Assembly: GCA_025617745.1 (NCBI GenBank)
Contig: CM046853.1
Coordinates: 9,626,974-9,690,973, forward strand
DNA: 64,000 nucleotides
Direction: 5' to 3'
Source: Heliocidaris erythrogramma
Lineage: Eukaryota; Echinodermata; Echinoidea; Camarodonta; Echinometridae
Positions 4,445 through 59,996 of the stretch are shown here, piece by piece; positions within the stretch are counted from its first letter, which is position 1; each line of letters begins with the position of its first letter. Position numbers and translations under genes: made by a program. The notes under the pieces were generated by a model. The model was given only the letters and a program-made list of their open reading frames with translations. It made no database searches and was not told where the DNA came from.

Positions 4445-6373
4445 CTTTCATCGATACAGTGTTGCTATTTTGTTATGGCTGCAAGTGATCCTGTGCATGA
4501 TCAAGGATAACTCCTTGGCATGAATAATCCATCTTGTTTTTCTATAGCACCTATATGCTCTAATGTCAAGTATTTTTTGTAATTTATATCATTGTACATT
4601 TTGGAGAGGGGTGAAAATATGTTTAATGTATTATATTAATGACTTTACCTGTACAGTGTAGGAGTAAGAACAGAGGAAGACACATGACTATGAGGAGCCT
4701 GTATTTTCTACACTCGCTCTTTAATTCCCTCATTTATTTCACACACCCTAATATCCAGTGAGTTATGTCAGCTAAAGCTCTTGCCCCCCAAAGCCTATTC
4801 AGAGCCCTGCGAGTGAGTTGTTGGACCATGGGTATTGTAAGCAAGAACAGTCAGTCCGCAGCGCCCGCGAATTAGCTCTAATTTATAAAATACGTATGCA
4901 TGACACTTACGGTCATGAATACGAAATGCGAAATGAAAGGCCCAACTTTGCCATCTCCTTATTCTGCAGAGAAAATACATATGAACATGAAATTCTCAGA
5001 ATATTGAGATTATACTATGACAGTATGAACCATGTAAAAAAAAGGTCAAAATTTACTTTTCAAAATACGAAATATTGTGAGGTATATTTAGGAGAAAAAT
5101 CAGTATAATTACTGTTCGAAACTTTAGCTTTTAAAACACCCTTCTTTTTTAATGATTCTATGAAAAAATGAGTTCATCATCTTTAACAACTCTTCAGCTT
5201 TCTATTGGTACTCAAAACATACGTATTATTTCACGTTCAATACCAGTCAGGAGCCAGCAAAATACAACGCATTTACCAAAAACACCGAGGTTCCACTGTA
5301 TAGGTTTTCAAGCTCGAGACATACACAGACAAATTTAATTGAGAAAAGATGTTCCAAATGGCAAGAGAATTTTTAACACATGTAGTAAGCAACTGACATA
5401 GGCTACATAAAATATTTGTCTTAAAAAAAAAAGCAAACATGAATATGTCATAAAAATAACAAAACGAAAATATGAATTAAACTCTTTAAACTGCTTAGGC
5501 GTATCTAACAATACCATAAAAGAGAATGGGTTGTGTGTCCCCTTAGTTACAAAAACATTTTTTAAAAGAGAAAATTATAATTTTTTTTCAAATAAGGTGA
5601 ATGTTTATGCTGTCAAATTTTAGTAGAACTACATGTATGCATCAAGGAATAAAAGAAACAACATGTGTGCATCATACACACAAACATAGTTTAGTTGTGT
5701 AAACCTATCTTCACAATTGTCGTGATATTTTTCTTCTCTGTATGAAAATGAAATACACCAATGATACTGTTGCTTCTGGGGAAAATATGATGTCCAACTC
5801 CAGATACAAACCAAGTTCTTAGTCAAAGGAATAAGAAGGAAGCTGTTCCTGTAAACCGTGAAAAGTAGAATCTCCAAATGCTGTTATCTCCAAATGCTGT
5901 TATCTTCAAATAAGAACACTGGGGTGACCTGAAATCATGAACATAAATTCATTAAGTCAATTGCATGAAGGATAAGATGAAATCATCTCTCCCTGCTGAA
6001 ATTACAAAAGTATGTTATATTATGAATTTAACCTTACAATACAAACGAGGAGCACTTCTAAATAACAATTTGGAATATACATTTAACATTGAAGTCATAG
6101 TTGATTTGTCCAATGAATCATGACAATGATCGGCTGACAATTTCACTATCTCAATACCAACCGAGTTGCTCAATCAATGACTTGAAGGCTTAATCAGACT
6201 TTCCAAAATTGTGACTGACATTATCCATATTTTTCACCTGATCTGGAACCATCAAACTCACTAGATTATGTATAAAATACAGGCATTGCATACTTAGTCA
6301 AGAATCTAGGACCATGATGACCAAGGTTAAATCTGTGTTTAAAGATCACATTACAAGAAAATTCCATCAATAT
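4445..6373. other. AT-rich non-coding stretch
   Basis: No exon or RNA gene recognised; the short open frames lack domain-like composition. A 23-mer at 5239-5261 recurs exactly at 7890-7912. A short duplication of CTCCAAATGCTGTTATCT lies at 5872-5909. Confidence 0.5.
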
Positions 6374-6642
6374 AAATATTGGCTTAATACTTATTATTGC
6401 ATAGATGGCATAAATTAAACAAGGTTATCCATATTCAACACTTGGAAACATTTGAAGTAGTGATTATTATCAATTATAAAACGGTAAAATACAGCCCCCG
6501 ATATAGCAGCTGAAGAGCTCCTCGAACGCTGCTGAGATGTGTGACGACACACCAGGAACCAGTCCTTTCTAAAGCAGACGATGTCCCATAACATCTTACA
6601 CATTTTTCAGTGCCTGTTTTGTCATCTCCTCTTCACTTATTC
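6374..6642 (-). mobile_element. Repeat E, copy 1 (inverted relative to 59118-59384)
   Basis: This 269-bp block is, with few changes, the reverse complement of 59118-59384. Shared landmarks are GACGATGTCCCATAACATC, GCTGAAGAGCTCCTCGAACG and GGCTTAATACTTATTATTGC. The similarity stops at 6642-6646, where a copy of repeat family A begins, so the two elements are directly juxtaposed. No protein. Confidence 0.85.
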
Positions 6643-7548
6643 CTAAGGCTCGAGTGAGCTATTGCGATGGAAATTTGTCCGGCGTTCGTCCGTTAACTTT
6701 TTACATTTTCATCATCTTCTCCAAAACCCATGATCGGAATTCAACCAAACTTGGTAGGAATCATCCTTAGGGGTAGGGGACCCAAAGTTGCTAAAATGGT
6801 ACATGTGGCCGCCAGGGGGGCCTAGGGGGAAGGCCCCCAATTGTAAAAGCTATGTAAATTTCAAACATCTTCTTCTCCAGAACCAGGCATAGCTCAGACT
6901 TGGTATTGTGTATGGAGATACCTCTGTAGATGAAGAATGAATGTTCATGAAATTTCTCTGAGTGGCCCTATAGGGGCCCTGTGGGGGTAACATACTGGAG
7001 GGGGGGGGGGGGGGGGGCGCTGCCAGGCAAAATGTACATTCTGATCTTCTTCTCCAAAACACATGATCGGAATTCAACCAAACTTGGTAGTAATCATCCG
7101 TAGGGGTAGGGGACCCAAATTTGCTAAAATGGTACGGAGGGCCCCCAATTGTAACCAAGCATAGCTCAGACTTGGTATTGTGTATGGAGATACCTCTATA
7201 GATGAAAAATGAAAGTTGTTCATTAATTTTTTCTGGGTGGCCCTATAGGGGGTCTGTGGGGGTAACATACTGGAGGGGGGGGGGGGGGTGGGGCAAGTTG
7301 TCCGCCATCCATAAACTTTTTACATTTTCAGCTTCTTCTCCAAAACCCATGATTGGAATTTAACCGAACTTGGTAGGAAGCTCAGACTTGGTATTGTATA
7401 TAGAGATACCTCCATAGATGAAGAATGAAAGTTGTTCATGTGCTAGAGAGAACATGCACTAGAGAGAACATGCACTAGAGAGAACATGCACCAGATGTGA
7501 ATTGATCCACCTCAGGTGAGCGTCGTGCCCCCTGGGGCTCTTGTTCTG
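6643..7548 (+). repeat. Repeat family A, copy 1 (tandem-monomer element)
   Basis: Starts CCTAAGGCTCGAGTGAGC and ends CCTCAGGTGAGCGTCGTGCC / CTGGGGCTCTTGTT, the same ends as the larger array at 39133-42959. The interior holds about 2.5 monomers of ~300 bp with landmarks CCAAACTTGGTAGGAATCAT and CCCTATAGGGGCCCTGTGGG, plus poly-G tracts at about 6991-7017 and 7275-7289. Minus-strand frames rich in proline come from poly-G and are not proteins. The left tip (GCTCACCTGAG) is missing, so this copy is truncated. Confidence 0.85.
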
Positions 7549-13967: not shown

Positions 13968-14370
13968 CCTGCAAACGCGTAAGCAAAAAGACATACATGT
14001 AGGTGCTGCTTTTCCGGCAGAGGCAGTGGCGACGGCGTCAACAATTTTGGAAATGCTCTCATTTCAAAAGCATGTGCTCGATTTTCATGAAACTTGAACA
14101 CAAGGATTGTAGAGTATCACAAATAATGGGGAACAAATTTCAGGTCAAAAGTCAAGGTCAAAGGTCAAGTAGGGTCAATTGTGTTCCAAAAACTTCACCT
14201 TAGGTTTAATAAGTTTTTGAATTTTTACTTTATTTCAAAAGTATTTGTTCAAATTCTTTGAAATTTGGCTTTATTCTTGGTAGGGATTGTCTTCATGTCA
14301 CCCTCTTTCAAATGAATACCCAAATCTTACATTTTCATCACATTAAAGTTCACCTACTGACAGTTTTGAG
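13968..14370. repeat. Dispersed repeat with AGGTCA half-sites
   Basis: A segment starting TTGTCTCCCCTGCAAACGCG, then TTTCATGAAACTTGAACACA, then AGGTCAAAAGTCAAGGTCAA near 14143 continuing into AGGTCA and GGGTCA half-sites. The layout (a GAAACTTGAACACAAGGA word followed by a cluster of GGTCA words) parallels the monomers of families B and C. Ends are approximate. Confidence 0.55.
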
Positions 14371-15745: not shown

Positions 15746-17024
15746 TCTTTCAGTCACTTTTCAATAATGTTTTAGACCCGTTATTGACTAAAACACATTA
15801 GCTAATCAATAGGAAAACACACGCCTGTATTTACTAGTTATGTGCTATGGTTTAGAAAGGGATTTGGTGCACCTCCCTGCCTGGGCTTGGCCTATGACCA
15901 GTGGACAAGTGCTCAAAGAGTCGACTGTTGAACTCCAGTGAGGCATAACCTTTGACTTTATTTTTGGTTACCATGGAAACAGTGTGAGACGAGGGTACCA
16001 CCTGTTCAGTTGTATGGCAATATTTCAATGGGAAGAGATATGTGGAATTATGATGAATATTAGAATTTATATTTATTTTTTTCACATAACCTTGTCCTTC
16101 GAGCCCGAGTATTTGTATGAAAAACTTGGTTTTTAAGTATGTTTTTGGATTGTCTGTTTGTCCATCTCTTCTTGGCGCTAATATGTATCGCCATAGGAAG
16201 ACAATCTGATTAGAGTTTAGCAAATGTAGGTCAAAGGCAATGGAGGTCATTTACCATGAAATTTCAGCTTTTTGCCTTGTTAACACTCTCTTGAACAATA
16301 TAACTTTCATATCCAGGAATTTACAAAGTGATGAAGATTATTAAATTTCTGCATTTTTGTCTATTTAGTTTCGATTTAAGAGTGTATTCACAGAAAATTA
16401 TTTCAGAAATTGAAAGCATCAAAGAGTTTATGAGGAAAAAATGAATACTTGTGATTTGTACAATAGCTCAATTTCTACTTTCCCATACTATTTGTTTAAA
16501 CATTGTATCTATATCTATCTTTTAATAATCTAAAAAGATCTGGGATATATAGCGGGTAAATTTTACAATTGGTCGTAGAAAAACATTGGCCAACTAAAAA
16601 ATTATTAGAGTCCCACATCCTGTGAGTTAATATTAATGACCACCCCCCCCCCCCCTCACCAGCCAAGAAGTTTATTTTGCATTCAACATTCTGATTGATG
16701 CTGGCACAAATGAGTTGGAATATCTGCTTGTTCGAGCAGCCACTGATTGTCACCTCCTCCCACTCCGTAGTAACATAAACTTTTCGTATAATGGATGTCC
16801 CTGGTTAAATGCAATCTTCTCTGCATTTTTAATAATCCTAGACTCACAGATCAAAGAAAACAATTTCAAACCCTTAAAAAGGTGATTTTTATTTTAAACC
16901 AAGTGCACTTTCTAGTTGAGCTATTTGAAAAATTTAAAAAGGATTGTTTTCTTTGATACACATATTTTGATATTGCCAAATAACAACGCATACCACTTCT
17001 TTTCTCGATATATGGTCTTTAAAT
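15746..17024. other. Intron stretch, no gene recognised
   Basis: A 132-codon minus-strand open frame (15852-16250) has no domain-like features or splice context and is left uncalled. A poly-C run lies at 16641-16655. Confidence 0.45.
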
Positions 17025-17495: not shown

Positions 17496-17549
17496 GGTGG
17501 ACTATCCCCTTAACGTGTAATTGTACATGTGGGCTTTTTATACTTGTTT

Positions 17550-17633
17550 TCACAATACTTCAAGAACAGTTTGAGCCATCAACTGAATTTAGGTGGAGGC
17601 ATATAGGAGAAGTCGTCACATTCATCCTGTTGT
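17550..17633 (+). repeat. Repeat family B, solo terminal fragment
   Basis: Contains CAGTTTGAGCCATCAACTGA, TTTAGGTGGAGGCATATAGG and CATTCATCCTGTTG, matching the distal end of family B (49000-49054) with a few changes. No monomers remain. Confidence 0.8.
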
Positions 17634-18671
17634 ATCTACAGATGTGTATTCAAGTTTTTTGTATGAAAAGTTGTAGATGAGCTCCCCTTAAACTTCTGTT
17701 GCAAATTACATAAATTTTCAATTTATTTCACTTTATATTAATAGGCAATGTACATGTATTTACATGAAGGGAAAATGAAAACAGATCCTCTGTTGCCTTA
17801 AAAATTATATCCCTTGAGCCTAAGTTATTCTTTTTTTTTTTTTTTTTTTACATGGGATCTTAAATGAATTGCCCTGATCATGCAGTGAATTATTGAAGTC
17901 TCATATAGAATGGATTTGCTAAACTAGAACTAAAATGAAATATAAAAGTTTTATCTTTATTGCTGCAATCTATTCCCACTAGCTCTATTGCCTTCACAAG
18001 TTTATATTCTTTTTTCTTTTTTCATTTTGACCCAAGTAATTGAATTTTAATCTTACAGTTCAAGAATTTGGAGTCCCCTCCCCACTTTTAAGCTTTGTAA
18101 AATTGTATAAAGAAAATTAAATGCCTATACTTGAATATTAAATTTGGAATGAAGTTGACTAATTCTTACTACACATGTAAACACCATCAATATGATGTTG
18201 TGGGATCAATATCAATTACTACTGTGTGAGAGTGGGAATATGAATGGCAAGGTCATAATCAGTACCACACAGCTACGGATGTGGGTTAATTTCATTACAC
18301 AGATATGGAAGAGAAAGCCTGGGCCATGAACCTTGTGGTCATGTATGTTCTTGAATAAGCATGCTATTTTAACCCTTCAAGGCTTTGAGTACTTAGCTAT
18401 CCAAACTCCTGTCACATGATGGTCAGATGACATGGACAGCAGTTGAGCCCTGAGTAAATATTTATACAGGTAGACATGTGCTTGCCACGAGCTGCCAGTA
18501 TAATTGTAAGACTAATATGATATGATCTGTGCAATATTCAACCATGTGTGAGTTATGAGCCAAGTTATTGTATTCTTTGCATTGTGATAACTATTATGAA
18601 GTAAAGAATAATATTTAAAAATACTGGGGATATTGATTAATTGAATGAAAAAAATTGATGTAAAATAACTA
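17634..18671. other. AT-rich intron stretch
   Basis: Poly-T run at about 17831-17849. No exon or element ends recognised. Confidence 0.5.
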
Positions 18672-26134: not shown

Positions 26135-27230
26135 CTATAATTTCTGGTGATGCTGCCCCCAGTGTTCCGTCTTTTATAGGGTAAAAGGCCATATTTTGGG
26201 GGATAGTTTGTGTGCACTCTTGTGTGTACTCTTGTGTGTGCTCTGGCGGTCACATTTCTCAACGGATTTCATTCAAATTTTGCATGAAGGTGTCTCTTAG
26301 TGTAATCTAAAAACCTATAGTTTTTGGTGATGCTGCTACCAGTGTCCCCGTCTTTTATAGGGTCAAAGGTCATACTTTGGAGAATGGTGTGATTGCACTC
26401 TGTAGGCCACACTTCTTGATGGATTTCTTTCAAATTTTCCATGGAGATGTAACTTGGTATAATGTACACTTTACTTTTTGGTGATGCTGCCCTCCTTTTT
26501 TCCGTCCTGTATAGGGTCAAAGGTCATTTGTCCATTTCTTGCACTCTTACTTCTGCATTTCTTGACAGATTTCGTTCAAATTTTGTATGGAAGTGTATCT
26601 TGGTAAAATCTACGCACCCATAGTTTTTGGTGATGCTGCCACCAGTGTCCCGTCTTTTATAGGGTCAAAGGTCATACTTTGGAGAATGGTGTGATTGCAC
26701 TCTGTAGGCCACACTTCTTGATGGATTTCGTTCAAATTTTCCATGGAGATGTAACTTGGTATAATCTACACATCTTTACTTTTTGGTGATGCTGCCCTCA
26801 TTGTTCCGTCCTTTATAGGGTCAAAGGTCATATGTCTTTTGTGCGCTATAACTTCCGCATTTCTTGACGGATTTCTTTCAAATTTTATTTGGAGGTGTGT
26901 CTTAGTGAAATCTACACATCTTTAGTGTTTGCTGATGCTGCCCCCCATTGTTCCACTTTTTATAGGGTTAAATGTCATATTTTGGTTGCATGAATTCTGG
27001 AGGACACATTTCTTGACTGATTTCTTTCGAATTTTGTATGGAGGTCCATCATAGATTACTCTAGGCCTCTACAGTTTTTGGTGGTGCTGCCTCCAGTGTT
27101 CCGTCTTTCATAGGGTCAAAGGTCATATTTTAGTGGATATCTTTTGTGCGCTCTGAGGTCACATTTCTTGAGAGATTTCTTTTGAAATTTCTATAGAGAT
27201 GCATTATACTCTAATCTACACACATTGTAG
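26135..27230 (+). repeat. Repeat family C: tandem array of ~155-bp monomers
   Basis: Seven monomers begin with a TTTTGGTGATGCTGCC-like word at about 26147, 26325, 26479, 26628, 26784, 26929 and 27081. Each then carries GTTCCGTCTTTTATAGGG, usually GGGTCAAAGGTCAT, a CATTTCTTGACGGATTTC-type word and TTCAAATTTT..ATGGAGRTG. Spacing is 150-178 bp. GGGTCA-A-AGGTCA is a DR1 nuclear-receptor half-site pair and is present in most monomers. Element ends were not identified. Not coding. Confidence 0.85.
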
Positions 27231-39132: not shown

Positions 39133-40055
39133 TTAGCTCACCTGAGCCTAAGGCTCGAGTGAGCTATTGCGATGGAAATTTGTCCGTCGTCCGTCGTGCG
39201 TCGTCCGTTAACTTTTTACATTTTTATCTTCTTCTCCAAAACCCATGATCGGAATTCAACCAAACTTGGTAGGAATCATCCTTAGGGGTAGGGGACCCAA
39301 AGTTGCTAAAATGGTACATGTGGCCCCCAGGGGGGCCCAGGGGGAGGGCCCCCAATTGTAAAAGCTATGTAAATTTCAAACATCTTCTTCTCCAGAACCA
39401 GGCATAGCTCAGACTTGGTTTTGTGTATGGAGATACCTCTATAGATGAAGAATGAATGTTGTTCATGAAATTTCTCTGAGTAGCCCTATAGGGGCCCTGT
39501 GGGGGTAACATACCGGAGGGGGGGGGGGGGGGGTGGCCCTGCCAGCCAAAATGTACATTCTGATCTTCTTCTCCAAAACACATAATCGGAACTCAACCAA
39601 ACTTGGTAGGAATCATCCTTAGGGGTAGGGGACCCAAAGTTGCTAAAATGGTACATGTGGCCCCCAGGAGGGCCCAGGGGGAGGGCCCCCAAGTGTAAAA
39701 GCTATGTAAATTTCAAACATCTTCTCCAGAACCAGGCATAGCTTAGACTTGGTATTGTGTATGGAAATACCTCTATAAACGAAAAATGAAAGTTATTCAT
39801 GAATTTTTCCTGGGTGGCCCTATAGGGGGTCTGTGGGGGGAACATACTGGGGGGGGGGGGGGGGGGGGGCAAGTTGTACGCCATCCATAAACTTTTTACA
39901 TTTTCAGCTTCTTCTCCAAGATTGGAATTTAACCGAACTTGGTAGAAAGCTCAGACTTGGTATTGTGTATAGAGATACCTCTATAGATGAAGAAAGAATG
40001 TTGTTCATGAAATTTCTCTGAGTGGCCCTATAGGGGCCCTGTGGGGGTAACATAC

Positions 40056-40095
<40 letters not shown>

Positions 40096-42959
40096 CTGCC
40101 AGCCAAAATGTACATTCTGATCTTCTTCTCCAAAACACATAATCGGAACTCAACCAAACTTGGTAGGAATCATCCTTAGGGGTAGGGGATCCAAAGTTGC
40201 TAAAATGGTACATGTGGCCCCCAGGGGGGCCCAGGGGGAGGGCCCCCAAGTGTAAAAGCTATGTAAATTTCAAACATCTTCTTCTCCAGAACCAGGAATA
40301 GCTCAGACTTGGTATTGTGTATGGAGATACCTCTCTAGATGAAGAATGAATGTTCATGAAATTTGTCTTGAGTGGCCCTATAGGGGCCCTGTGGGGGTAA
40401 CATACTGGAGGGGGGGGGGGGGGGTGGGGGGGGGGGGGGGGCATTGCCAGGCAAAATGTACATTCTGATCTTCTCCAAAACACATAATCGGAATTCAACC
40501 AAACTTGGTAGGAATCATCCTTAGGGGTAGGGGACCCAAAGTTGCTAAAATGGTACATGTAGCCCCCCGGGGGGCCCAGGGGGAGGGCCCCCAATTGTAA
40601 AAGCTATGTAAACTTCAAACATCTTCTTCTCCAGAACCAGGCATAGCTCAGACTTGGTATTGTTTATGGAGATACCTCTATAGATGAAGAATGAATGTTG
40701 TTCATGAAATTTCTGTGAGTGGCCCTATAGGGGCCCTGTGGGGGTAACATACTGGAGGGGTGGGGGGCGTTGCCAGGCAAATTGTACATTCTGATCTTTT
40801 CCAAAACACATAATCGGAACTCAACCAAACTTGGTAGGAATCATCCTTAGGGGTAGGGGACCCAAAGTTGCTAAAATGGTACATGTGGCCCCCAGGAGGG
40901 CCCAGGGGGAGGGCCCCCAAGTGTAAAAGCTATGTAAATTTCAAACATCTTCTTCTCCAGAACCAGGCATAGCTCAGACTTGGTATTGTGTATGGAGATA
41001 CCTCTATAGATGAAGAAAGAATGTTGTTCATGAAATTTCTCTGAGTGGCCCTATAGGGGCCCTGTGGGGGTAACATACCGGAGGAGGGGGGGGGGGGGGG
41101 GGGGGGCTGCCAGCCAAAATGTACATTCTGATCTTCTTCTCCAAAACACATAATCGGAACTCAACCAAACTTGGTAGGAATCATCCTTAGGGGTAGGGGA
41201 TCCAAAGTTGCTAAAATGGTACATGTGGCCCCCAGGGGGGCCCAGGGGGAGGGCCCCCAAGTGTAAAAGCTATGTAAATTTCAAACATCTTCTTCTCCAG
41301 AACCAGGAATAGCTCAGACTTGGTATTGTGTATGGAGATACCTCTCTAGATGAAGAATGAATGTTCATGAAATATGTCTTGAGTGGCCCTATAGGGGCCC
41401 TGTGGGGGTAACATACTGGAGGGGGGGGGGGTGGGGGGGGGGGGCATTGCCAGGCAAAATGTACATTCTGATCTTCTCCAAAACACATAATCGGAATTCA
41501 ACCAAACTTGGTAGGAATCATCCTTAGGGGTAGGGGACCCAAAGTTGCTAAAATGGTACATGTAGCCCCCCGGGGGGCCCAGGGGGAGGGCCCCCAATTG
41601 TAAAAGCTATGTAAACTTCAAACATCTTCTTCTCCAGAACCAGGCATAGCTCAGACTTGGTATTGTTTATGGAGATACCTCTATAGATGAAGAATGAATG
41701 TTGTTCATGAAATTTCTGTGAGTGGCCCTATAGGGGCCCTGTGGGGGTAACATACTGGAGGGGTGGGGGGCGTTGCCAGGCAAATTGTACATTCTGATCT
41801 TTTCCAAAACACATAATCGGAACTCAACCAAACTTGGTAGGAATCATCCTTAGGGGTAGGGGACCCAAAGTTGCTAAAATGGTACATGTGGCCCCAGGAG
41901 GGCCCAGGGGGAGGGCCCCAAGTGTAAAAGCTATGTAAATTTCAAACATCTTCTTCTCCAGAACCAGGCATAGCTCAGACTTGGTATTGTGTATGGAGAT
42001 ACCTCTATAGATGAAGAAAGAATGTTGTTCATGAAATTTCTCTGAGTGGCCCTATAGGGGCCCTGTGGGGGTAACATACCGGAGGGGGGGGGGGGGGGGC
42101 TGCCAGCCAAAATGTACATTCTGATCTTCTTCTCCAAAACACATAATCGGAACTCAACCAAACTTGGTAGGAATCATCCTTAGGGGTAGGGGATCCAAAG
42201 TTGCTAAAATGGTACATGTGGCCCCCAGGGGGGCCCAGGGGGAGGGCCCCCAAGTGTAAAAGCTATGTAAATTTCAAACATCTTCTCCAGAACCAGGAAT
42301 AGCTCAGACTTGGTATTGTGTATGGAGATACCTCTCTAGATGAAGAATGAATGTTCATGAAATTTGTCTTGAGTGGCCCTATAGGGGCCCTGTGGGGGTA
42401 ACATACTGGAGGGGGGGGGGGGGCATTGCCAGGCAAAATGTACATTCTGATCTTCTCCAAAACACATAATCGGAATTCAACCAAACTTGGTAGGAATCAT
42501 CCTTAGGGGTAGGGGATCCAAAGTTGCTAAAATGGTACATGTGGCCCCCAGGGGGGCCCAGGGGGAGGGCCCCCAAGTGTAAAAGCTATGTAAATTTCAA
42601 ACATCTTCTTCTCCAGAACCAGGAATAGCTCAGACTTGGTATTGTGTATGGAGATACCTCTATAGACGAAAAATGAAAGTTATTCATGAATTTTTCCTGG
42701 GTGGCCCTATAGGGGGTCTGTGGGGGGAACATACTGGGGGGGGGGGGGGCAAGTTGTCCGCCATCCATAAACTTTTTACATTTTCAGCTTCTTCTCCAAG
42801 ATTGGAATTTAACCGAACTTGGTAGAAAGCTCAGACTTGGTATTGTGTATAGAGATACCTCTATAGATGAAGAATGAAAGTTGGTGGTGCTAGAGAGAAC
42901 ATGCACCAGATGTGAATTGATCCACCTCAGGTGAGCGTGGTGCCCCCTGGGGCTCTTGT
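39133..42959 (+). repeat. Repeat family A, copy 2: 3.8-kb tandem array
   Basis: Begins TAGCTCACCTGAGCC / GGCTCGAGTGAGC and ends CACCTCAGGTGAGCGTGGTG / CTGGGGCTCTTGTT, so CTCACCTGAG is inverted at the two ends. Inside are about 11 monomers marked by GTGGGGGTAACATAC at roughly 39502, 39836, 40042, 40392, 40740, 41068, 41405, 41746, 42066, 42396 and 42720 (spacing mostly 320-350 bp). Variants repeat every third monomer, a ~1.0-kb higher-order unit. Each monomer has a poly-G tract. Proline-rich minus-strand frames are artefacts of it. Confidence 0.9.
40060..40095. repeat. 36-nt uninterrupted poly-G tract
   Basis: The longest of the poly-G runs of the family A array, at the same monomer position as the shorter runs near 39518, 39849, 40411, 41085, 41420, 42082 and 42410. 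It lies on the sense strand of the receptor intron. Confidence 0.9.
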
Positions 42960-46450: not shown

Positions 46451-46612
46451 ATGGGCGCCCCATTCGCAGTGAAGGAGTCAGCTATCTTGGTGGGAGCAAT
46501 CTTTTGATAAGGAATGTGCGCTACTCGCTGGACAATGCAACTTATCGCTGCCAAGCTACAAATCCTGAGACCGGTCAGACCATCTTGGCAGAAGCTAAGC
46601 TGGATATTATGT
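46451..46612 (+). CDS. PRTG-like: Exon D: Ig domain 3, second half
   Basis: Acceptor GCTCTTTCAG (46441-46450), donor ATGT|GTAAGT at 46613, both phase 1 (162 nt). It encodes DGRPIRSEGVSYLGGSNLLI, then RNVRYSLDNATYRCQATN and AEAKLDIM. The LGGSNLLIxNV E-strand motif is characteristic of the third Ig of the DCC/neogenin group. The usual D-x-G-x-Y motif before the F-strand cysteine is changed to LDNATYRC, which adds an NAT sequon. Confidence 0.93.
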
Positions 46613-46967
46613 GTAAGTTAAATCATACAGTTTCATCTTTTTTATTCAAAAGGGGTTTCCATTTTTAAGAATTTAAAAATGTATCCTTAATCAATTATCA
46701 ATATAATAATTGAATTGGATCTATTTGTTGATGATACTTATTCCTAATTTCTGATATTGGTCATTGAATCTGATGACATAATATACTCTGGAAAGTGGTT
46801 TGATTGATTACTGGTAAAGGCTATAGTTTTTCAGCCATTTTTCTTCTTTTTCATTAAATTTTCATCAAGGTTGATGAATATTAAACAGTAGTTTTCTATC
46901 TCTGTGATATAATATGTGTGTCTTTTATGACATATTCTGTAAAAAGTTTTCTTTCATCTATCTCTAG

Positions 46968-47240
46968 CTCCACCTGTGATCACAGTGGTACCTGAAGTCA
47001 ACCACAGGGTTATTGGTAGCAAGATTCGATTCTGGTGTCAGGCGACCGGTGAGCCTCGTCCAGAGATCACCTGGCTCCACAATGGTGTACCAGCCCTTAT
47101 CGATGACTTCCACAGTCACATGGACAACAATGACTATGTGATATCACAGCTATGGTGGGAGGATGAAGGTGTCTATCAGTGTGAGGCCAGGAATGAGGCA
47201 GGCAGTGCCTTAGTGACCGGATCGGTCACCATTGATGCAT
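46968..47240 (+). CDS. PRTG-like: Exon E: Ig domain 4
   Basis: Acceptor ATCTCTAG (46967), donor GCAT|GTAAGT at 47241, phase 1 on both sides (273 nt, 91 codons). A complete Ig-I domain: APPVITVVPEVNHRVIGSKI, then RFWCQATGEPRPEITWLHNG, then WWEDEGVYQCEARNEAGSA. The cysteine pair, the tryptophan of the C strand and the DEGVYQC motif are intact. The PP after the junction follows the Ig3-Ig4 linker typical of the family. Confidence 0.95.
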
Positions 47241-47651
47241 GTAAGTAGTTTTTTGACTCTTTGAGTTATGTTTATAACCTGTTCGTAGTGCCAATCAGGA
47301 AATCTTGGATAGTATTCCCTTTCTAATTAGATGAAAATTGTACATTAATATTTCAGTTTGTGGATTCAAATAGAATTGATTAATGACAATAGAAAGTACC
47401 TGTATATTCTTTTAAAATCAATAAACATCTGTGTGAAAGGACGGCTTTGAATTCCATTTGGTATTACCCATGCATTGATGTTAATATACTGATTGAAAAT
47501 ACAAAGACCATTTCATTTGGAAAAGAATAGAGATGCTCAGTATTACATACCGTGTAAAAAGTAATATACGTATACCTTAGTGAATTGAAGAAAGTCAAAT
47601 ATTACCCCGATTAAATTGATTAATAACTAGATTTCTTGCCTTGTCATACAG

Positions 47652-47798
47652 ATCCAAAGGACACATACCCAGGGCCCATTCGTAACCTCTCCATCAATCT
47701 GATCTCAAGTCGGCGTATAAGAGTAACATGGGAGCCTCCTGCCGATCTACCAGCTCCAGTTATAGCCTACCATCTGGAGTGCAAGGCATTAGTAGAAG
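47652..47798 (+). CDS. PRTG-like: Exon F: fibronectin type III domain 1, first half
   Basis: Acceptor CATACAG (47651), donor GAAG|GTGAGT at 47799, phase 1 (147 nt). It encodes DPKDTYPGPIRNLSINLISS then RRIRVTWEPPADLPAPVIAY and HLECKALVE. The PxxxxNLS opening, the A-strand proline, and TWEPP of the B-C strands mark an FN3 domain. The family usually splits this domain over two exons, as here. Confidence 0.9.
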
Positions 47799-47849
47799 GT
47801 GAGTAATTGCTGCCCCCTCTTGGGATTCACTTTGTATTTTTGTTTTGTT

Positions 47850-47875
47850 TGGGGGCGGGGGGGGGGGGGGGGTGA
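47850..47875. repeat. G-rich homopolymer tract in intron F-G
   Basis: GGGGGCGGGG followed by an unbroken run of G, 50 nt after the exon F donor, on the sense strand. Such G tracts can act as intronic splicing enhancers or form quadruplexes. Confidence 0.8.
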
Positions 47876-48180
47876 ACAAGAAAATAAGGATAGTGAGCAT
47901 AAGAGGGGAGTATTGTGAATTGTTAAGGTGCAAGATAGTAAAGGAGCAAGATAGTGCCACTTCTTGACTATCATATAAGTGTTAGCTGGGAAGCTGATAT
48001 ACAAGTTCAACGACTAGAGTTCAGAAGGAATACTCCCATTAAAAAGCAAGTAGTGAAATTGTATTTGACTATCATGCCCTTCTGTATTTTCATACTGCGC
48101 AATGCCCCCAATTAATCTCAGTGGATAGAGATGGAAACTTGATATATGAGATTCATTGCTATCACATGACATTTCATTTT

Positions 48181-49054
48181 TATGCCTCCGCCCACCGAAG
48201 GGGGGTGCCGGAGGCATTATGTTTTCGGGTTGTCCGTCCGTACGTCGTAACGTCCGTGCGTCCGTCCGTCCGTCCGTCCGTCCCACTTCTCGTTACCGCA
48301 ATATCTGAAGAATCATTTGAGGTAGGAACCTCAAACTTGGTACTAGTATGTATCCCCATACGAAGATGAACTGATTAGATTTTGGGGTAAGTAGGTCAAA
48401 GGTCAGAGGTCACAGAGGTCAATTTACATGAAATTACATGAAATTCTTGGTTTTTAGCACCGTTACCGCGATATCTCAAGAACTATCTGAGGTGAGAACT
48501 TCAAACTTGGTACCATTATGTATCCCCATAGAAAGATGAACTGATTAGATTTTGGGGTAAGTAGGTCAAAGGTCAGAGGTCACAGGTCAATTTACATGAA
48601 ATTACATGAAATTCTTGGTTTTTAGCACCGTTACCGCGATTTCTGAAGAACTATTTGAGGTAAGAACTTCAAACTTGGTACCAGTATGTATCCCCATAGA
48701 AAGAGGAACTGATTAGATTTTGGGGTAGGTAGGTCAAAGTTCAGAGGTCACAGAGGTCAATTTACATGAAATTACATGGAATTACTGGTTTTTAGCACCG
48801 TTACCGCGATATCTCAAGAACTATCTGAGGTGAGAACTTCAAACTTGGTACCAGTATGCATCCCCATAGAAAGATGAACTGATTATATTTTGGGGTAAGT
48901 AGGTCAAAGGTCAGAGGTCACAGAGGTCAATTTACATGAGATTACATGAAATTACTGGTTTTTAGCCTCGTTATCAAATATTTCTAGAACAGTTTGAGCC
49001 ATCAACTGAATTTAGGCGGAGGCATATAGGAGACGCAGTCGCATTCATCTTGTT
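48181..49054 (+). repeat. Repeat family B, copy 1 (four ~168-bp monomers)
   Basis: Starts TATGCCTCCGCCCACCGAAG, then GCATTATGTTTTCGGGTTGT and a (TCCG)n tract, then four monomers starting at about 48286, 48461, 48629 and 48797, then GAGCCATCAACTGAATTTAG / GCGGAGGCATATAGG and CATTCATCTTGTT. GCCTCCGCC and its inverse sit at opposite ends. Each monomer has CAAACTTGGTACCAGTATG, a GATTAGATTTTGGGGTA word and clustered AGGTCA half-sites (for example 48393, 48400, 48407 and 48416). It ends 8 nt before exon G. Confidence 0.9.
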
Positions 49055-49062
49055 TTATATAG

Positions 49063-49212
49063 ATGCAGATGCATTTGAGCAAGTGGTGCCTAACCCATCT
49101 TGTGACCTGAATAAACTGGAGCCGTACACTGAATATCGGATCACTGTGCAGTGCTTCACTAACAAGGCACCTTGTCCGCGCTACCAAGAATATGTGGTGA
49201 CGGCCCAAGATG
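49063..49212 (+). CDS. PRTG-like: Exon G: fibronectin type III domain 1, second half
   Basis: Acceptor TTTATATAG (49062) entered in phase 1; a second AG six bases on (49067-49068) keeps frame and would drop two residues. Donor GATG|GTACGT at 49213, phase 1; 150 nt. It encodes ADAFEQVVPNPSCDLNKLEP then YTEYRITVQCFTNKAPCPRY and QEYVVTAQD. LxPYTEYxIxVQC is the FN3 E-F-strand signature with the conserved tyrosine. Three extra cysteines (SC, QC, PC) are unusual for an FN3. The polypyrimidine tract belongs to the repeat immediately upstream. Confidence 0.88.
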
Positions 49213-49561
49213 GTACGTATTGTTTCTTTACTACTTCTGGCTTGAGAAATGTTTGAAAACAGAAAAAATATCTGTATTCAGCTGAAGCAATGTTTCTTCA
49301 AATCTAAATTTTGATAGGGCTTTGATACAGTGCCATATTGTAATCTTTGGAGACAAATGATGGTTGCAGAGAGAGAGAGAGAGAAAGGAAGATAATAGTA
49401 ATGAAGTAAAGGATTGCATGTACCATTCAACATCTTTTAGTTTTAACACAATTGGTCCCATTACATAAATCTATTATAAAATGCTTGAAAATGTATTTGA
49501 ACATTGCTTTCATATTGATACTCATATAAATACTCTCATAATTTTGTTTATATTTGAACAG

Positions 49562-49866
49562 TTCCTACAGGTAGTCCTGAGTTTTCCTTAGCGAGTGAAA
49601 GCCCAACCTCCATTACTGTCACATGGGATGAGCTCCTTTCACATCGTGCTAACGGTATCATCACCAGTATGGCATCACATATTGCCGTGCCAACAACCGA
49701 TACTGCAATGTGACAATGGTAGGCGGGGATCTGCACGAGTACACCATCAATGGCTTGACACCAAATTCCAACTACAGTGTGAGCATGACTGCAGCAACCA
49801 AGGTTGGTCTCGGGAGTTACTCGGGTAATGTTACAGTGGCAACACCAAGGAACATCAATGAGACAA
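49562..49866 (+). CDS. PRTG-like: Exon H: fibronectin type III domain 2, with a 1-nt frameshift
   Basis: Acceptor TTTGAACAG (49561), donor ACAA|GTGAGT at 49867. Both borders are phase 1, which needs a multiple of three, but the exon is 305 nt. The entry frame gives VPTGSPEFSLASESPTSITV, TWDELLSHRANGIITS and then runs into nonsense with a stop at 49711-49713. From 49668 another frame continues YGITYCRANNRYCNV and ends TAATKVGLGSYS ... VATPRNINET, a normal FN3 C-terminal half. The break lies at about 49666-49668 (one base missing). A sequencing or assembly error is the simplest explanation; an allelic null or pseudogene is possible, since all other exons are intact. Confidence 0.85.
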
Positions 49867-50424
49867 GTGAGTTGGGTTTGGATTATCTCTTGATAGCTAT
49901 AGCTAGTTCTTAGAGCCCACCACGTTGGATAATGATTGATACAGATTGTCAGGTTTAAAGAGTTGGTTTAAGGACTATCAGTTTGCTAGAGCAAAGAATG
50001 CTTTATATTTCAACTCCATATTAATTCATCCGTGTACCCTATTTTCTTGGAAATAAGTCCAGAATAACTTGATATGTCACATCACTGCTGTTGATACTGC
50101 TTGTCTTTAATTTTGTCTCTGTCCTGACCAAAGTATAGACATTTTGTATAAATACATTTATCATAGTGTAAACTACATTGTACATGTGATGTAGCCTACA
50201 TGTATCTGTAATAATTGGCATAGCAATGCATTCAAAAACTTTTTATCTCCATGATCTGTATGAGGTCATTTTGAAGGACATTTTTAATATTCTTGTGAAA
50301 TGATTATTTTTTCTGCTTTTAGTATCAGATGTTGTTTTCCTACTTATACTATGGTGTTCTAGTGGTCATCACTATAACATGGTTGTGAAAAAACTGTTTT
50401 TGTTTTCCTATTTGTTCCAATCAG
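49867..50424 (+). other. Intron H-I (558 nt)
   Basis: GTGAGT to CCAATCAG. Nothing inside besides an ACATGTGATG/CTACATGTA patch near 50180-50200. Confidence 0.8.
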
Positions 50425-50613
50425 CACCCAAGCCCCCACTATATTTGCAAGTCTTACCAATGAACCATACTACGTTGAGAGTAAGCTTCCAGCCAGCACC
50501 CAGTCCACCCATCACTGAGGGCTATAAACTAATGGTATCCTTGAACATGGCTAACAACTGGAATACCTATCTCTTGCCTGTAGACACTACGGAGTACTTT
50601 GTCACAGATCTGG
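50425..50613 (+). CDS. PRTG-like: Exon I: fibronectin type III domain 3, first half
   Basis: Acceptor TTCCAATCAG (50424), donor CTGG|GTAGGT at 50614, phase 1; 189 nt. It encodes PKPPLYLQVLPMNHTTLRVS, FQPAPSPPITEGYKLMVSLN and YLLPVDTTEYFVTDL. The pattern P..L.......TTL.VSF.P.P is the A-C part of an FN3, with GYKL of strand C' and a TTEYxVTDL E-strand. An unusual phenylalanine replaces the conserved B-strand tryptophan. Sequon NHT. The remaining half of the domain is not found before the window ends. Confidence 0.9.
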
Positions 50614-51462
50614 GTAGGTGGATTTCAGATTGATTTTGTGGTTTTTGTGTGTTTTTGTGACGTTTTCTGTTCGTCCTTATTTAGGTCCAGTTTCGAATTC
50701 ATTGACAGTTTAGAAGAGCTTAGTTTTAAAATATTTCTCAGTCGGAATTTCTTTGCTACTTTTTGATGTGGAAGAAATGCTACACCATAATGTTGGCGCC
50801 TTGGAAATTGTAGCGAGTTTTTAATTTGTTGCAGTGAATGTGTTGTGTGATCAGTGACTTCACTTTGAGGCATTCTAATCCAGTGACAGGAACTGGGGTT
50901 TGTTTATGTTGTCATGTAAAAGACAGTGTGGTGGTAACAGAATGGCTCTACAATATATACATAGAGTTGTCACTGTTATAAGTCTGTGGGATTTAAAATC
51001 GTATTTGCCTATTTTGATAATCCATTAGTTGAAACACTGTAATGGAAAATGTAAATGTGTTTACAACATGCATACGTGGCAGATATGGTTCCGTTGTTTT
51101 TTTTTTCAAGGTCAAGTATTTTGTAGTAGTGAGAATGAGAAGATTCCTTGTTGTATTAACAGAATTGTGAGTAAAAATCGTATGGTTGTAGAGTGGTTGT
51201 GAAGCATATGGTAGACATTCCTTTGAATGAGTCAAGTTTCATAGAAGTATACTCGGTCACAGATTTAGATGGATAGGTTTGTAGCGTCAAGTATGCCTTA
51301 GGCAATCAGTTATTGTGGCAAGTTCCACTTTCATTCGTCATTAAACATTGACTCCTTTTTTTCTATTTCATTCCGATCATTAATTTTGGAAAGTAATTAT
51401 AAAAATTATGATATTGTAGGCTTGTGTGCTGCTAGTATGAGTGCTCTTGTTATAGAAATAAC

Positions 51463-52803
51463 AAGATGAATGCGACTGCGTCTCCTATATGCCTCCGCCT
51501 AAATTCTGTTGATGGCTCAAACTGTTCTAGAAATATTTGATAACGAGGCTAAAAACAGTAATTTCATGTAATTTCATGTAAATTGACCTCTGTGACCTCT
51601 GACCTTTGACCTACTTACCCCAAAATCTAATCGGTTCATCTTTCTATGGGGATGCATACTGGTACCAAGTTTGAAGTTCTCACCTCAGATAGTTCTTGAG
51701 ATATCGCGATAACGGTGCTAAAAACCAGTAATTCCATGTAATTTCATGTAAATTGACCTCTGTGACCTCTGAACTTTGACCCACCTACCCCAAAATCTAA
51801 TCAGTTCCTCTTTCTATGGGGATACATACTGGTACCAAGTTTGAAGTTCTTACCTCAAATAGTTCTTCAGAAATCGCGGTAACGGTGCTAAAAACCAAGA
51901 ATTTCATGTAAATTGACCTCTGTGACCTCTGACCTTTGACCTACTTACCCCAAAATCTAATCAGTTCATCTTTCTATGGGGATACATACTGGTACCAAGT
52001 TTGAAGTTCTCACCTCAGATAGTTCTTGAGATATCGCAGTAACGGTGCTAAAAACCAGTAATTCCATGTAATTTCATGTAAATTGACCTCTGTGACCTCT
52101 GAACTTTGACCTACCTACCCCAAAATCTAATCAGTTCCTCTTTCTGTGGGGATACATACTGGTACCAAGTTTGAAGTTCTCACCTCAAACAGTTCTTGAG
52201 ATATCGCGGTAACGGTGCTAAAAACCAAGAATTTCATGTAATTTCATGTAAATTGACCTCTGTGACCTCTGACCTTTGACCTCCTTACCCCAAAATCTAA
52301 TCAGTTCCTCTTTCTATGGGGATACATACTGGTACCATGTTTGAAGTTCTCACCTCAAACCGTTCTTGAGATATCGCGGTAACGGTGCTAAAAACCAAGA
52401 ATTTCATGTAATTTCATGTAAATTGACCTCTGTGACCTCTGACCTTTGACCTCCTTACCCCAAAATCTAATCAGTTCATCTTCGTATAGGGAAACATACT
52501 AGTACCAAGTTTGAAGTTCTTACCTTAAACAGTTCTTGAGATATCGCGGTAACGGTGCTAAAAACCAAGAATTTCATGTAATTTCATGTAAATTGACCTC
52601 TGTGACCTCTGACCTTTGACCTACTTACCCCAAAATCTAATCAGTTCATCTTTGTATGGGGATACATACTAGTACCAAGTTTGAGGTTCCTACCTCAAAT
52701 GATTCTTCAGATATCGCGGTAACGAGAAGTGGGACGGACGGACGGACGGACAACCCGAAAACATAATGCCTCCGGCACCCACCTTCGGTGGGCGGAGGCA
52801 TAA
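51463..52803 (-). repeat. Repeat family B, copy 2 (inverted, seven ~170-bp monomers)
   Basis: Reads in the opposite direction to copy 1. It opens AACAAGATGAATGCGACTGC, has monomer borders GGTAACGGTGCTAAAAACCA near 51714, 51886, 52046, 52216, 52386 and 52556, then a (CGGA)n tract, CCCGAAAACATAATGCCTCC and GGTGGGCGGAGGCATA. TGACCTCTGACCTTTGACCT words are the DR1-spaced half-sites on the minus strand. One monomer is 10 bp short because of a missing ATTTCATGTA duplicate. Confidence 0.92.
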
Positions 52804-53740
52804 AAAGTTTGTCTAACTCATATTTCTTTAGGAGTCATTTTTGCACATTATGATTATGTAGTAGATCTATTCAATCATTCAGTTAATCTAGTAATTTCTT
52901 CAAAATTCTTATTTATCTGCTTGTCTTCTTACAGATCTTCAGATTTAAATTTTTGTATTTAAATAAAATAGGGAAAACCCCAAATGTGGTATTAACTGTT
53001 TAAATGATTCAGAATTATTTTAGGATAAAATCTCCCATTTAAAGATGAAAAGAACAAGTTGAGATGCATACATTTAAGTTGTCATTTTTCAAAGTTCTAT
53101 TAGCATAAATGTATTATTAGTGTACCTTTGGTATTTATTTAGAAACTGAAATGCATCCTTTTTGTTACAATCATCGTGCTTTATTACTGAATCATGTTCT
53201 ATGCAGAATTGTATCTTCAGTGGGAGTGTACTCACCAGAATATATCTGTGCCTTCTTCTCTTTGTAGGTTAACAAACAAAAGCTTATTTAACGCCCAAAA
53301 TAGATTGCTTCCTAGAAATTCATACTTTGCATATGCTTACTCGAAACATTGTGTAAATAATTGAACAATTAAAAATCAAAAGTTTTACATTAAAACCACA
53401 GCAGAATAAACACATGTTCCATCGAAATGTATTGGAACTTTGGCTGTATTCAACATGTTATTGACAGCCTATGAAAAAACTGTTCCTTTTACTGTGTTTT
53501 GTCATTTTGGAGATAATATTACAATTCTATACCTACTTCAAGATATCAGCATGATCAGTATTGCTTGTGATCTCATTCACGTATTCTGTTATCTGGATAT
53601 TTACATTTGAAAATGAAATATTTGACAAGTTTTGTGAATGAAATGCATGTATCATTTCAAATTTACAATTATTGATAGTAGTATTTTAGGAAAGATAACA
53701 TTTTTTCTGGAGGATAATTCTCTAACTGTTAACTCTTGAG
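52804..53740. other. AT-rich stretch, no exon found
   Basis: Candidate acceptors (for example 53206-53209, TGCAG) open onto early stops. No FN3-like sequence. Confidence 0.5.
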
Positions 53741-54110
53741 AATCTGGTTTTCATGGACAGTTTTAAACAGAGCTTGTGCAAACCTAGAATGGTACCCGCC
53801 CATTTAGAATAGGATTCTATCAAACTCTAAAATCTGTACATTAAAATTATCATTCTGACATGGTAGAGATAACAAACACAATTGTATTGAATGGTGGAAT
53901 AAATAGCATTTAAATTTTTTGAGTATCTTTTGAATCTGGTTTTCATGGAAAGGTTTAAACAGAACTTGTGCAAACCTAGAATGGTACCCACCGAATTAAA
54001 TATAAGTCTATCAAACTCTAAAATCTGCACATTAAAATTATAATTCTGACATGGTAGAGATACCAAACACAATTGTATTGGATGGTGGAATAAATACCAT
54101 TTAAATAAAT
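53741..54110. repeat. Two-unit tandem duplication (~192 bp)
   Basis: AATCTGGTTTTCATGGA, AACCTAGAATGGTACCC and GACATGGTAGAGATA occur in the same order from 53741 and again from 53933, with about 10% divergence. A short echo of the end (AATAAATACCATTT) follows at 54127-54140. The 131-codon minus-strand frame here reads through both units and is not a gene. Confidence 0.85.
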
Positions 54111-54623
54111 AAAAAAAAAAGTTAAATAATAAATACCATTTGAAAATAAGATGACTTTCTGAATCGATCACGGTTGAATAGATGACAAAGGGAACTACCA
54201 ACTCAAGAACTCCTAATCCCACGAATTTGATATAGAAAGCCGTAAAGCTTTACATTTATTCGAATCTGCGAATACAACCAGCAGAAAACCAAAGCAAATA
54301 TTAAGTATATTTGTCATTTATACTGCATATCAACATTTTAAATATTAATATATCTGAGTGCATTTTCAAATCATACAAAACTTCAATTATTGTATGAAGA
54401 CGTGTTACCAAAAGAGTTTGATAATTCACTCTTTGCTTCTGTATTAATTTGTTAAACTTATTCATTTTGTAATATCAAAGTCAAAGCACTCAATTTTGTT
54501 GTCAATCTACTTTAGCCAATCTCTGACAAACTAATTTGATGTTTGTCTTATAATAAACAATAAACTAATGCATTCTCTGATTGCATATGAAAGTAATATT
54601 GTTGTTTGAGCCTTTCTTTGTTA
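54111..54623. other. AT-rich stretch
   Basis: Nothing recognised. Confidence 0.5.
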
Positions 54624-58619: not shown

Positions 58620-59384
58620 TGGAATATCCGAGGATTCGCCAGAAATATAGCGATGTTTTGATGTCGTCACACTCGGGATCGATCCTGCTTAAGCAGACGA
58701 CGTCCTATAATGAATGAACGTAATTGCAATGCAATTATTTATCAAATTATAAAGAGTTTGGTGTATTTAAACATGACCTTATTTCACACCATTATAAAGG
58801 GAAAGTGAAACTGATTCTGATAGCTAAAACCGTTTGATTGTAAATACATAGGAGAAGGGTCAATGATCAATGAAATAAACCCCACTTTCAAATTGAAAAG
58901 CCCTCCGAATAATAGCAGGATGGTATTCGTTCCCTCTTGAAACGCCGAACATGCCCCGGTGCAAGCAGCTGAAAATACAATGGCGTCTTATTTTGTTTAC
59001 AAGTGACTGATTCCTTTATTTTTTTAACGCTGCATTTTTCATCAAAATAATACCATACACGAAGTTAAGAGTGAGGCAACAGACTAACATTAAGACTGAC
59101 GCTAGTGAAGGAAGAGAAATAAGTGAAGAGGAGATGACAAAATAGGCTCTGAAAAATGTGTAAGATGTTATGGGACATCGTCTGCTTAGACAGGACTGGT
59201 CCAGGGTGTGTCGTCACATATCTCAGCAGCGTTCGAGGAGCTCTTCAGCTGCTATATCGGGGGCTGTATTTTACCGTTTTATAATTGATAATAATCATTA
59301 CTTCAAATGTTTCCAAGCGTTGAATTTGGATAACCTTGTTTAATTTATGCCATCTATGCAATAATAAGTATTAAGCCAATATTT
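58620..59384 (+). mobile_element. Repeat E, copy 2, with internal inverted arms
   Basis: The right part, 59118-59384, is the inverse of 6374-6642. In addition GTCGTCACACT ... CTTAAGCAGACGACGTCCTA (58663-58711) is inverted at 59165-59219 (GGGACATCGTCTGCTTAGAC ... TGTCGTCAC), making ~50-bp arms about 500 bp apart. This looks like a non-autonomous fold-back element of which copy 1 keeps only one arm. Outer ends are not defined. Confidence 0.75.
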
Positions 59385-59996
59385 AAAATCATTAACGTTC
59401 TACTTTAAATGTCATTGGGGTGGGGGGGGGGGGGGGGTTGTTGTTGATGCATGCATTTTAGTGGTTGCTTGGTGTTTTCAGTTTTACTAGGGCATATAAA
59501 GCTTTCAACTTTCAGATCTATATTTTAAAGCAATTTAGAAGATGTGTATTATAAGTCAACCAACAGGACAGATATTTTTGTTTTTGTTAGTAATGGTACC
59601 AATTTCCTTTCAATCTTTTGTTTCAGAATTGATTGAAGATTGAAGAGTAGATTTTGAGTGTCCATATTATCTCAACCAGTCATTGTACTAGATACAAAGA
59701 CCTACTGAACTTTTTGTTTTGACCATTAATCTGATCTTTCCTGACCTAGCTTTGTGGAGGCAGCGATATATATAACAGATATATTGTCTAAATTAGATGT
59801 GAATGTAGGGTTGAGAGGGTCACTGAAGCCGCATTCACACTTGACATTTAAAACCACCTTCGAAAAGAACGTCTTTACAAGATAAAACAAAAGAGTGCAT
59901 GTGACAAAGGCCATGGTCTTGACATATTCCAGTTCCAAATTTGCTGATGTGCTATTTCTTAATATTCAATATTGAGTGGAATTGGTTAGTTGAAGT
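59385..59996. other. Spacer with poly-G
   Basis: Poly-G near 59419-59438 followed by TTGTTGTTGATGCATGCAT. No gene. Confidence 0.5.

Follow-up and report, generated by a model that had tools for sequence, protein, structure and literature searches.

Within a 64,000-nucleotide window of the Heliocidaris erythrogramma genome (contig CM046853.1, positions 9,626,974 to 9,690,973 of the forward strand; positions below are those of the window), two copies of one transposable element flank exons G, H and I in opposite orientation within a gene of Ig/FN3 receptor-like type, and the upstream copy ends inside the 3′ splice site of exon G. We propose that the two copies would pair in the precursor RNA, that the resulting duplex would be edited and that exon G would be skipped in a portion of the transcripts. 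Taken whole, this is in our view the best explanation of the two inverted insertions and of the duplex predicted over the acceptor, and we give it a probability of about 0.55. The features on which the argument turns are listed from upstream to downstream.

47652..47798, + strand: exon F, 147 nt, first half of FN3-1
48177..49054, + strand: copy 1 of a HINE/DINE-1-like element, 878 bp, in intron F-G, its ends set with the help of 30 genomic copies
49026..49062, + strand: exon G acceptor region, consisting of the element tail up to 49054 and 8 host bases, TTATATAG
49063..49212, + strand: exon G, 150 nt, phase 1-1, second half of FN3-1
49562..49866, + strand: exon H, 305 nt, FN3-2, with a one-base frame offset in the assembly
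50425..50613, + strand: exon I, 189 nt, phase 1-1, first part of FN3-3
51460..52806, - strand: copy 2 of the same HINE/DINE-1-like element, 1347 bp, in intron I-J, 846 nt past exon I

The original prediction had placed inverted copies at 48181-49054 (+) and 51463-52803 (-), on either side of exons G, H and I and at a distance of about 2.4 kb, and this arrangement was confirmed: comparison with other genomic copies moves the ends by a few bases, both copies now including five leading T and a trailing TT, and the gap, with the three exons inside it, measures 2,405 nt. A repeat search of 46500-54500 returned 22 inverted arm pairs, the longest ungapped one being 393 nt at 94% and another 364 nt at 98%; those on the scale of hundreds of bases, the smallest excepted, join copy 1 to copy 2. 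The local alignment of the two copies covers 764 nt at 95.0% identity (bit score 1192).

The original prediction overlooked that copy 1, ending at 49054, stops 8 nt before exon G, as it overlooked the frame shift in exon H. When the flanks are rejoined without copy 1 they read ...CACATGACATTTCATTT^TTATATAG, which resembles a splice acceptor, the split of the T run being uncertain. Copy 1 thus inserted into the exon G acceptor, a T-rich 3′ splice site whose branch-point and polypyrimidine region is now supplied by the tail of the element. A crude acceptor score gives exon G 4.9 in its present form and exon H 4.3; the joined flanks score 3.0 or 1.4 according to where the T run is divided.

We then folded the RNA from 48177 to 52806, with 200 structures drawn wherever folds were sampled. 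The minimum-energy fold contains 826 bp between copy 1 and copy 2, arranged in four helices with a longest perfect helix of 183 bp, so that the pairing over hundreds of bases foreseen in the original prediction is reproduced by the model. In this fold, positions 49036-49054 are fully paired to copy 2. The predicted energy is -2260.8 kcal/mol with copy 2 inverted versus -1183.2 kcal/mol with copy 2 turned to the direct orientation, a drop which indicates that the long duplex comes from orientation.

The closest precedent is exon 3 of human RABL5, where an Alu 24 nt upstream together with a second, inverted Alu causes skipping, and where spacers of at least 68 nt largely abolish the effect, which begins to return only below 68 nt (PMC2533698). 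As in the Alu pair described there, opposite copies of a young repeat are found here with one of them beside a 3′ splice site; unlike it, our pair consists of a DNA transposon with a tandem core rather than a short interspersed element, and three exons separate its copies, which sit in different introns. The spacing is 8 nt here and 24 nt in RABL5; the RABL5 effect was measured, ours is proposed. At so short a distance, similar effects should be expected on the exon G acceptor. Alu structures are also described as able to occlude splice sites, and ADAR acting on double-stranded RNA at the polypyrimidine tract as able to exclude U2AF65 (PMC7404189). As for editing itself, 86% of editing sites in the purple sea urchin are reported to lie in repeats, and young repeats are given as the primary targets in animals (PMC9989829; further support in PMC5625713).

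Following these precedents, we envisage that whenever both copies are transcribed before intron F-G is removed, the duplex would become a substrate for ADAR-type editing and would cover the exon G acceptor. Copy 1 contains 253 A and copy 2 contains 388. Some transcripts would then skip exon G, joining F to H (phase 1 to phase 1), or skip G-H-I, joining F to J. Removal of intron F-G ahead of pairing would leave exon G in the transcript by way of the element-borne acceptor. Because all junctions of exons D to I read in phase 1 and removal of G, H and I joins F to J in phase 1, the outcome would be a deletion in the protein and not a scrambled sequence. Our analysis ranks editing with partial skipping of G (or of G-H-I) first, the absence of any effect second and a G-H-I circle third, with editing the safest expectation.

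Several points weigh against this proposal. Introns are often removed before a further 3.7 kb has been transcribed, so the duplex may seldom form. In the sampled folds the branch-point and tract of exon G were unpaired at 0.34 before copy 2 is made and at 0.40 with both copies present, which means that the computation does not show copy 2 closing the acceptor; only the pairing partner changes. The splice scores are crude, with approximate frequencies. Of the 3′ palindrome that such elements would be expected to carry, neither tail shows a stable hairpin (z 0.10 and 0.45), and by eye there is only GAC-GCA-GTC with 3-base arms. The FN3-like reading of exon H changes frame, using one frame up to roughly 49665 and a second from roughly 49653 onward. 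Since exons G-I each occur once in the genome at the DNA level, the switch in exon H would reflect an assembly error, an allele or a broken gene. Lastly, the two RABL5 Alus share one intron (PMC2533698), whereas our copies stand on either side of exons.

Among the alternatives, the one that survives best holds that the two copies are neutral passengers which leave with their introns before they can pair, with at most occasional editing of unspliced RNA. The abundance of the element speaks for it. Across the genome searched (1,064,227,859 bases in 26 contigs), the 38-base tail has 1,095 exact matches (500 forward, 595 reverse) and 2,449 matches with up to three mismatches, against none for a backward-sequence control. 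Under uniform placement the 2,449 tails would give about seven inverted pairs no more than 2.5 kb apart, and the exact ones 1.4, so such an arrangement is ordinary across the genome, if uncommon for any single gene. By hand count, the 100 exact tails listed of the 1,095, all on contig C1, include four neighbour pairs less than 5 kb apart, three of them direct and one, copies 1 and 2, inverted. The exon G acceptor, moreover, is usable by the crude score, at a value close to that of exon H. The 8-nt spacing, however, is far inside the range that mattered in RABL5, and we regard neutrality as rather unlikely. Selection for the inverted arrangement was rejected as unsupported, the same seven or so pairs being expected under uniform placement.

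Less probable still is a circular RNA of exons G, H and I (644 nt as assembled), formed if pairing places the donor of exon I next to the acceptor of exon G. The original prediction rested on the view that inverted repeats promote back-splicing, skipping and editing, which the literature backs as possible results; inverted repeats in flanking introns are described as promoting circles, with 30-40 nt sometimes sufficient (PMC11766002), and 826 bp could pair here. The locus resembles circular RNA loci driven by base pairing (PMC11766002, PMC11263572) in having long complementary sequences in the introns that flank a group of exons, and in the sampled folds both the acceptor and the donor of exon I were unpaired (1.00 each). 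It differs from those loci in that one repeat includes the acceptor region, and in that it is known from sequence alone. The bracketing, the near identity of the copies and the predicted pairing therefore stand, but the proposed junction of the exon I donor to the exon G acceptor does not fare as well, since the predicted duplex covers 49036-49054, which is the only room that this acceptor has for a branch point and holds most of its polypyrimidine tract, and leaves just 8 bases free ahead of exon G. A back-splice into that exon depends on the very acceptor that the duplex would cover, which favours editing and skipping over a G-H-I circle. The anatomy agrees better with loss of exon G, or with a smaller circle of H and I; circles through the exon G acceptor would be rare, and an H-I circle may be possible. 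We consider the G-H-I circle improbable.

It is tempting to speculate further that the tail of a Helentron-type element is a portable 3′ splice site, and that at exon G the 826-bp duplex ties such an acceptor to a pairing switch. The element enters T-rich DNA and ends CATTCATCTTGTT, so that a copy landing in a polypyrimidine tract could rebuild the acceptor rather than abolish it; whether exon G is used would then depend on pairing, which editing or early splicing could relieve. In 10 of 28 other insertions (copy 1 and one locus with duplicate flanks being set aside) an acceptor-like AG lies within 20 nt of the tail, versus 3.48 expected at random flank positions chosen without regard to T content; the observed number was attained in 3 of 2000 draws. 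Support for the portable acceptor beyond the exon G locus is thin, and we think the idea doubtful.

The weakest alternative casts copy 1 as an exon trap, in which a host branch point upstream uses the first AG of the element (48199-48200) together with one of its repeated donor-like sites to make a cryptic exon carrying stops. As transcribed, copy 1 has nine donor-like sites against a mean of 2.22 in 300 shuffles (one of which reaches nine), and an acceptor-like site ending at 48200 scores 7.7; pairing with copy 2 would, as a corollary, mask the cryptic exon and protect the gene, and pairing that partly offsets the effect of an Alu is described for RABL5 (PMC11263572). This AG is embedded in a strong hairpin at the 5′ end (-23.1 kcal/mol as RNA), copy 1 has 1 acceptor-like site versus 7.35 in shuffles, and all four cryptic exons tried contain stops, so that such exons would cut the output of the gene; given the scarcity of acceptor-like sites and the stops, we retain the trap only as a weak and very improbable rival. 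The donor-like sites themselves span 48321-48894, are of the GAG|GTGAGA and GGG|GTAAGT types and occur about twice per unit; copy 2 as transcribed has one.

The internal anatomy of the two copies is as follows.

48182..48192, + strand: 5′ subterminal inverted repeat of copy 1, ATGCCTCCGCC, which opens a 5′ hairpin
48232..48283, + strand: GTCC microsatellite of copy 1, called by Tandem Repeats Finder with period 4 and 13 copies
48291..48973, + strand: core array of copy 1, made up of four units, each about 170 bp long
49015..49025, + strand: 3′ subterminal inverted repeat of copy 1, GGCGGAGGCAT, 29 nt short of the 3′ end
51541-52724, - strand: core units of copy 2, seven in number
52022..52531, - strand: the three core units of copy 2 that have no counterpart in copy 1 and that the minimum-energy fold leaves as a loop outside the duplex

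In its own orientation the element thus runs from TTTTT-ATGCCTCCGCC through a 5′ hairpin, a GTCC microsatellite (also found in copy 2) and the 170-bp array to GGCGGAGGCAT and a 29-nt tail ending CTTGTT. In both copies GGCGGAGGCAT is the exact reverse complement, over 11 bp, of ATGCCTCCGCC. The 5′ hairpin has a z value of -3.90 in copy 1 (-13.3 kcal/mol as DNA) and -6.20 in copy 2, and none of 200 shuffles was as good in either case. T runs border both ends (25 left and 30 right ends read), and no target-site duplication was visible by eye, although this is ambiguous inside a T run. Likened to published elements by description, the element appears to be a non-autonomous Helentron-type, HINE/DINE-1-like element. 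The HINE/DINE-1-like plan is described as comprising subterminal inverted repeats of 11-15 bp, an internal inverted repeat, a short microsatellite and a 3′ palindrome (PMC4067079), and Cg_HINE of the Pacific oyster as having subterminal repeats of 11-12 bp, GTCY/GTCC microsatellites, tandem monomers commonly of 140-180 bp, which are not obligatory, and T-rich TT targets (PMC7492417). Our element shares with these its 11-bp subterminal repeats, 5′ hairpin and GTCC stretch before an array of about 170-bp units, as well as a short right end, a T-rich TT target, both orientations and thousands of copies. It differs from HINE-Mo in the distance of the 3′ subterminal repeat from the 3′ end, reported there as 38-60 nt, and from HINE/DINE-1-like elements generally in that its fold lacks a stable 3′ hairpin.

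In collections of prokaryotes and viruses, a 30-base and a 20-base piece of the element had no matches in viral_contigs, and the 20-base piece had none in genome_contigs. Six short pieces searched in open-licence PubMed Central text returned only papers unrelated by title, and HINE or Helentron together with exonization or cryptic splicing was not found there among the matches listed. Within the window, decayed pieces at 16171-16297 and 17535-17638, both on the + strand, form a putative third, older copy of the same family. Nuclear-receptor-like direct repeats of the form RGKTCA-N-RGKTCA occur 29 times in the window, 23 of them in copies 1 and 2 (9 and 14); five lie in an apparently unrelated tandem array at 26253-27131 and one in a repeat-like stretch at 14155. 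AGGTCA together with nuclear receptor, tandem repeat, transposable element and Helitron was not found in open-licence PubMed Central.

The core units of the two copies correspond one by one: units 1, 2, 3 and 4 of copy 1 match units 1, 5, 6 and 7 of copy 2 at 98.8, 98.7, 99.4 and 97.6%, so the two arrays go back to one source and are now three units apart in length. Aligned over their homologous stretches, the copies differ at 11 of 831 bases and show 46 gap columns. Of the genomic tails, 30 were fetched, all on C1, among them copies 1 and 2 and two that share identical flanks; TT directly follows CTTG in 29 of the 30 right ends. The left end was recognizable in 25 copies, with T at -1, -2, -4 and -5 in every one and at -3 in 24. 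When the ends of nine copies were compared (L005 was left out, its 5′ end not being found by pattern), copies 1 and 2 differed at 8 of 463 positions, copy 1 and L004 on contig 15 at 6 of 464, and copy 2 and L006 on contig 7 at 5 of 463. As copies 1 and 2 resemble copies from other chromosomes at least as much as they resemble each other, they are two independent, recent insertions from a single burst. For the same reason, and because the outside flanks are unrelated, a segmental inversion or palindromic duplication was rejected as the origin of the pair. Unit number, substitutions and flanks all differ between the copies, which argues against a collapsed or mirrored assembly. Two other copies on C1, L038 (C1:14664654) and L039 (C1:14902665), about 238 kb apart, have identical flanks and so represent a duplicated segment, not two insertions.

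The host gene is probably of the cell-surface receptor type, with Ig domains followed by FN3 domains. Exons D and E lie at 46451-46612 and 46968-47240, splice sites are present at exons F, G, H and I, and the next exon, J, begins outside the window at 65541, so that intron I-J is 14,927 nt long. The Pfam fn3 matches of exons F to I are fragmentary: against the cut-off of 25 bits, only the second half of exon H passes (30.4); F, G and I score 22.3, 19.2 and 14.9, and the first half of exon H has no Pfam fn3 match. The joined protein matches 89 solved sequences at ≤1e-10, among them contactin-2 at 2.9e-40, DCC at 6.7e-38 and Robo2 at 2e-35. Four Ig domains, by our own count within the window, suggest a DCC-like layout, with the family not settled. 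Elsewhere in the window, an inverted repeat pair at 6373-6644 and 59115-59385 (272 nt, 95.6%, about 52 kb apart) spans its Ig and FN3 exons, and a tandem array at 39948-42748 has period 326, 8.4 copies and long G runs.

The type of element is already known; what is of some interest here is its presence in the polypyrimidine tract of a coding exon together with an inverted partner past exon I. If our proposal is true, a mobile element has rebuilt the acceptor of a coding exon, and a second copy has drawn that acceptor into a long RNA duplex. The locus would then be a recent natural experiment, in an animal outside the usual models, that could separate, through alleles or relatives with 0, 1 or 2 copies, the effect of proximity to a splice site from the effect of pairing. 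It also suggests that the distance from repeat to splice site needs checking before circular RNA is predicted from inverted repeats that bracket exons.

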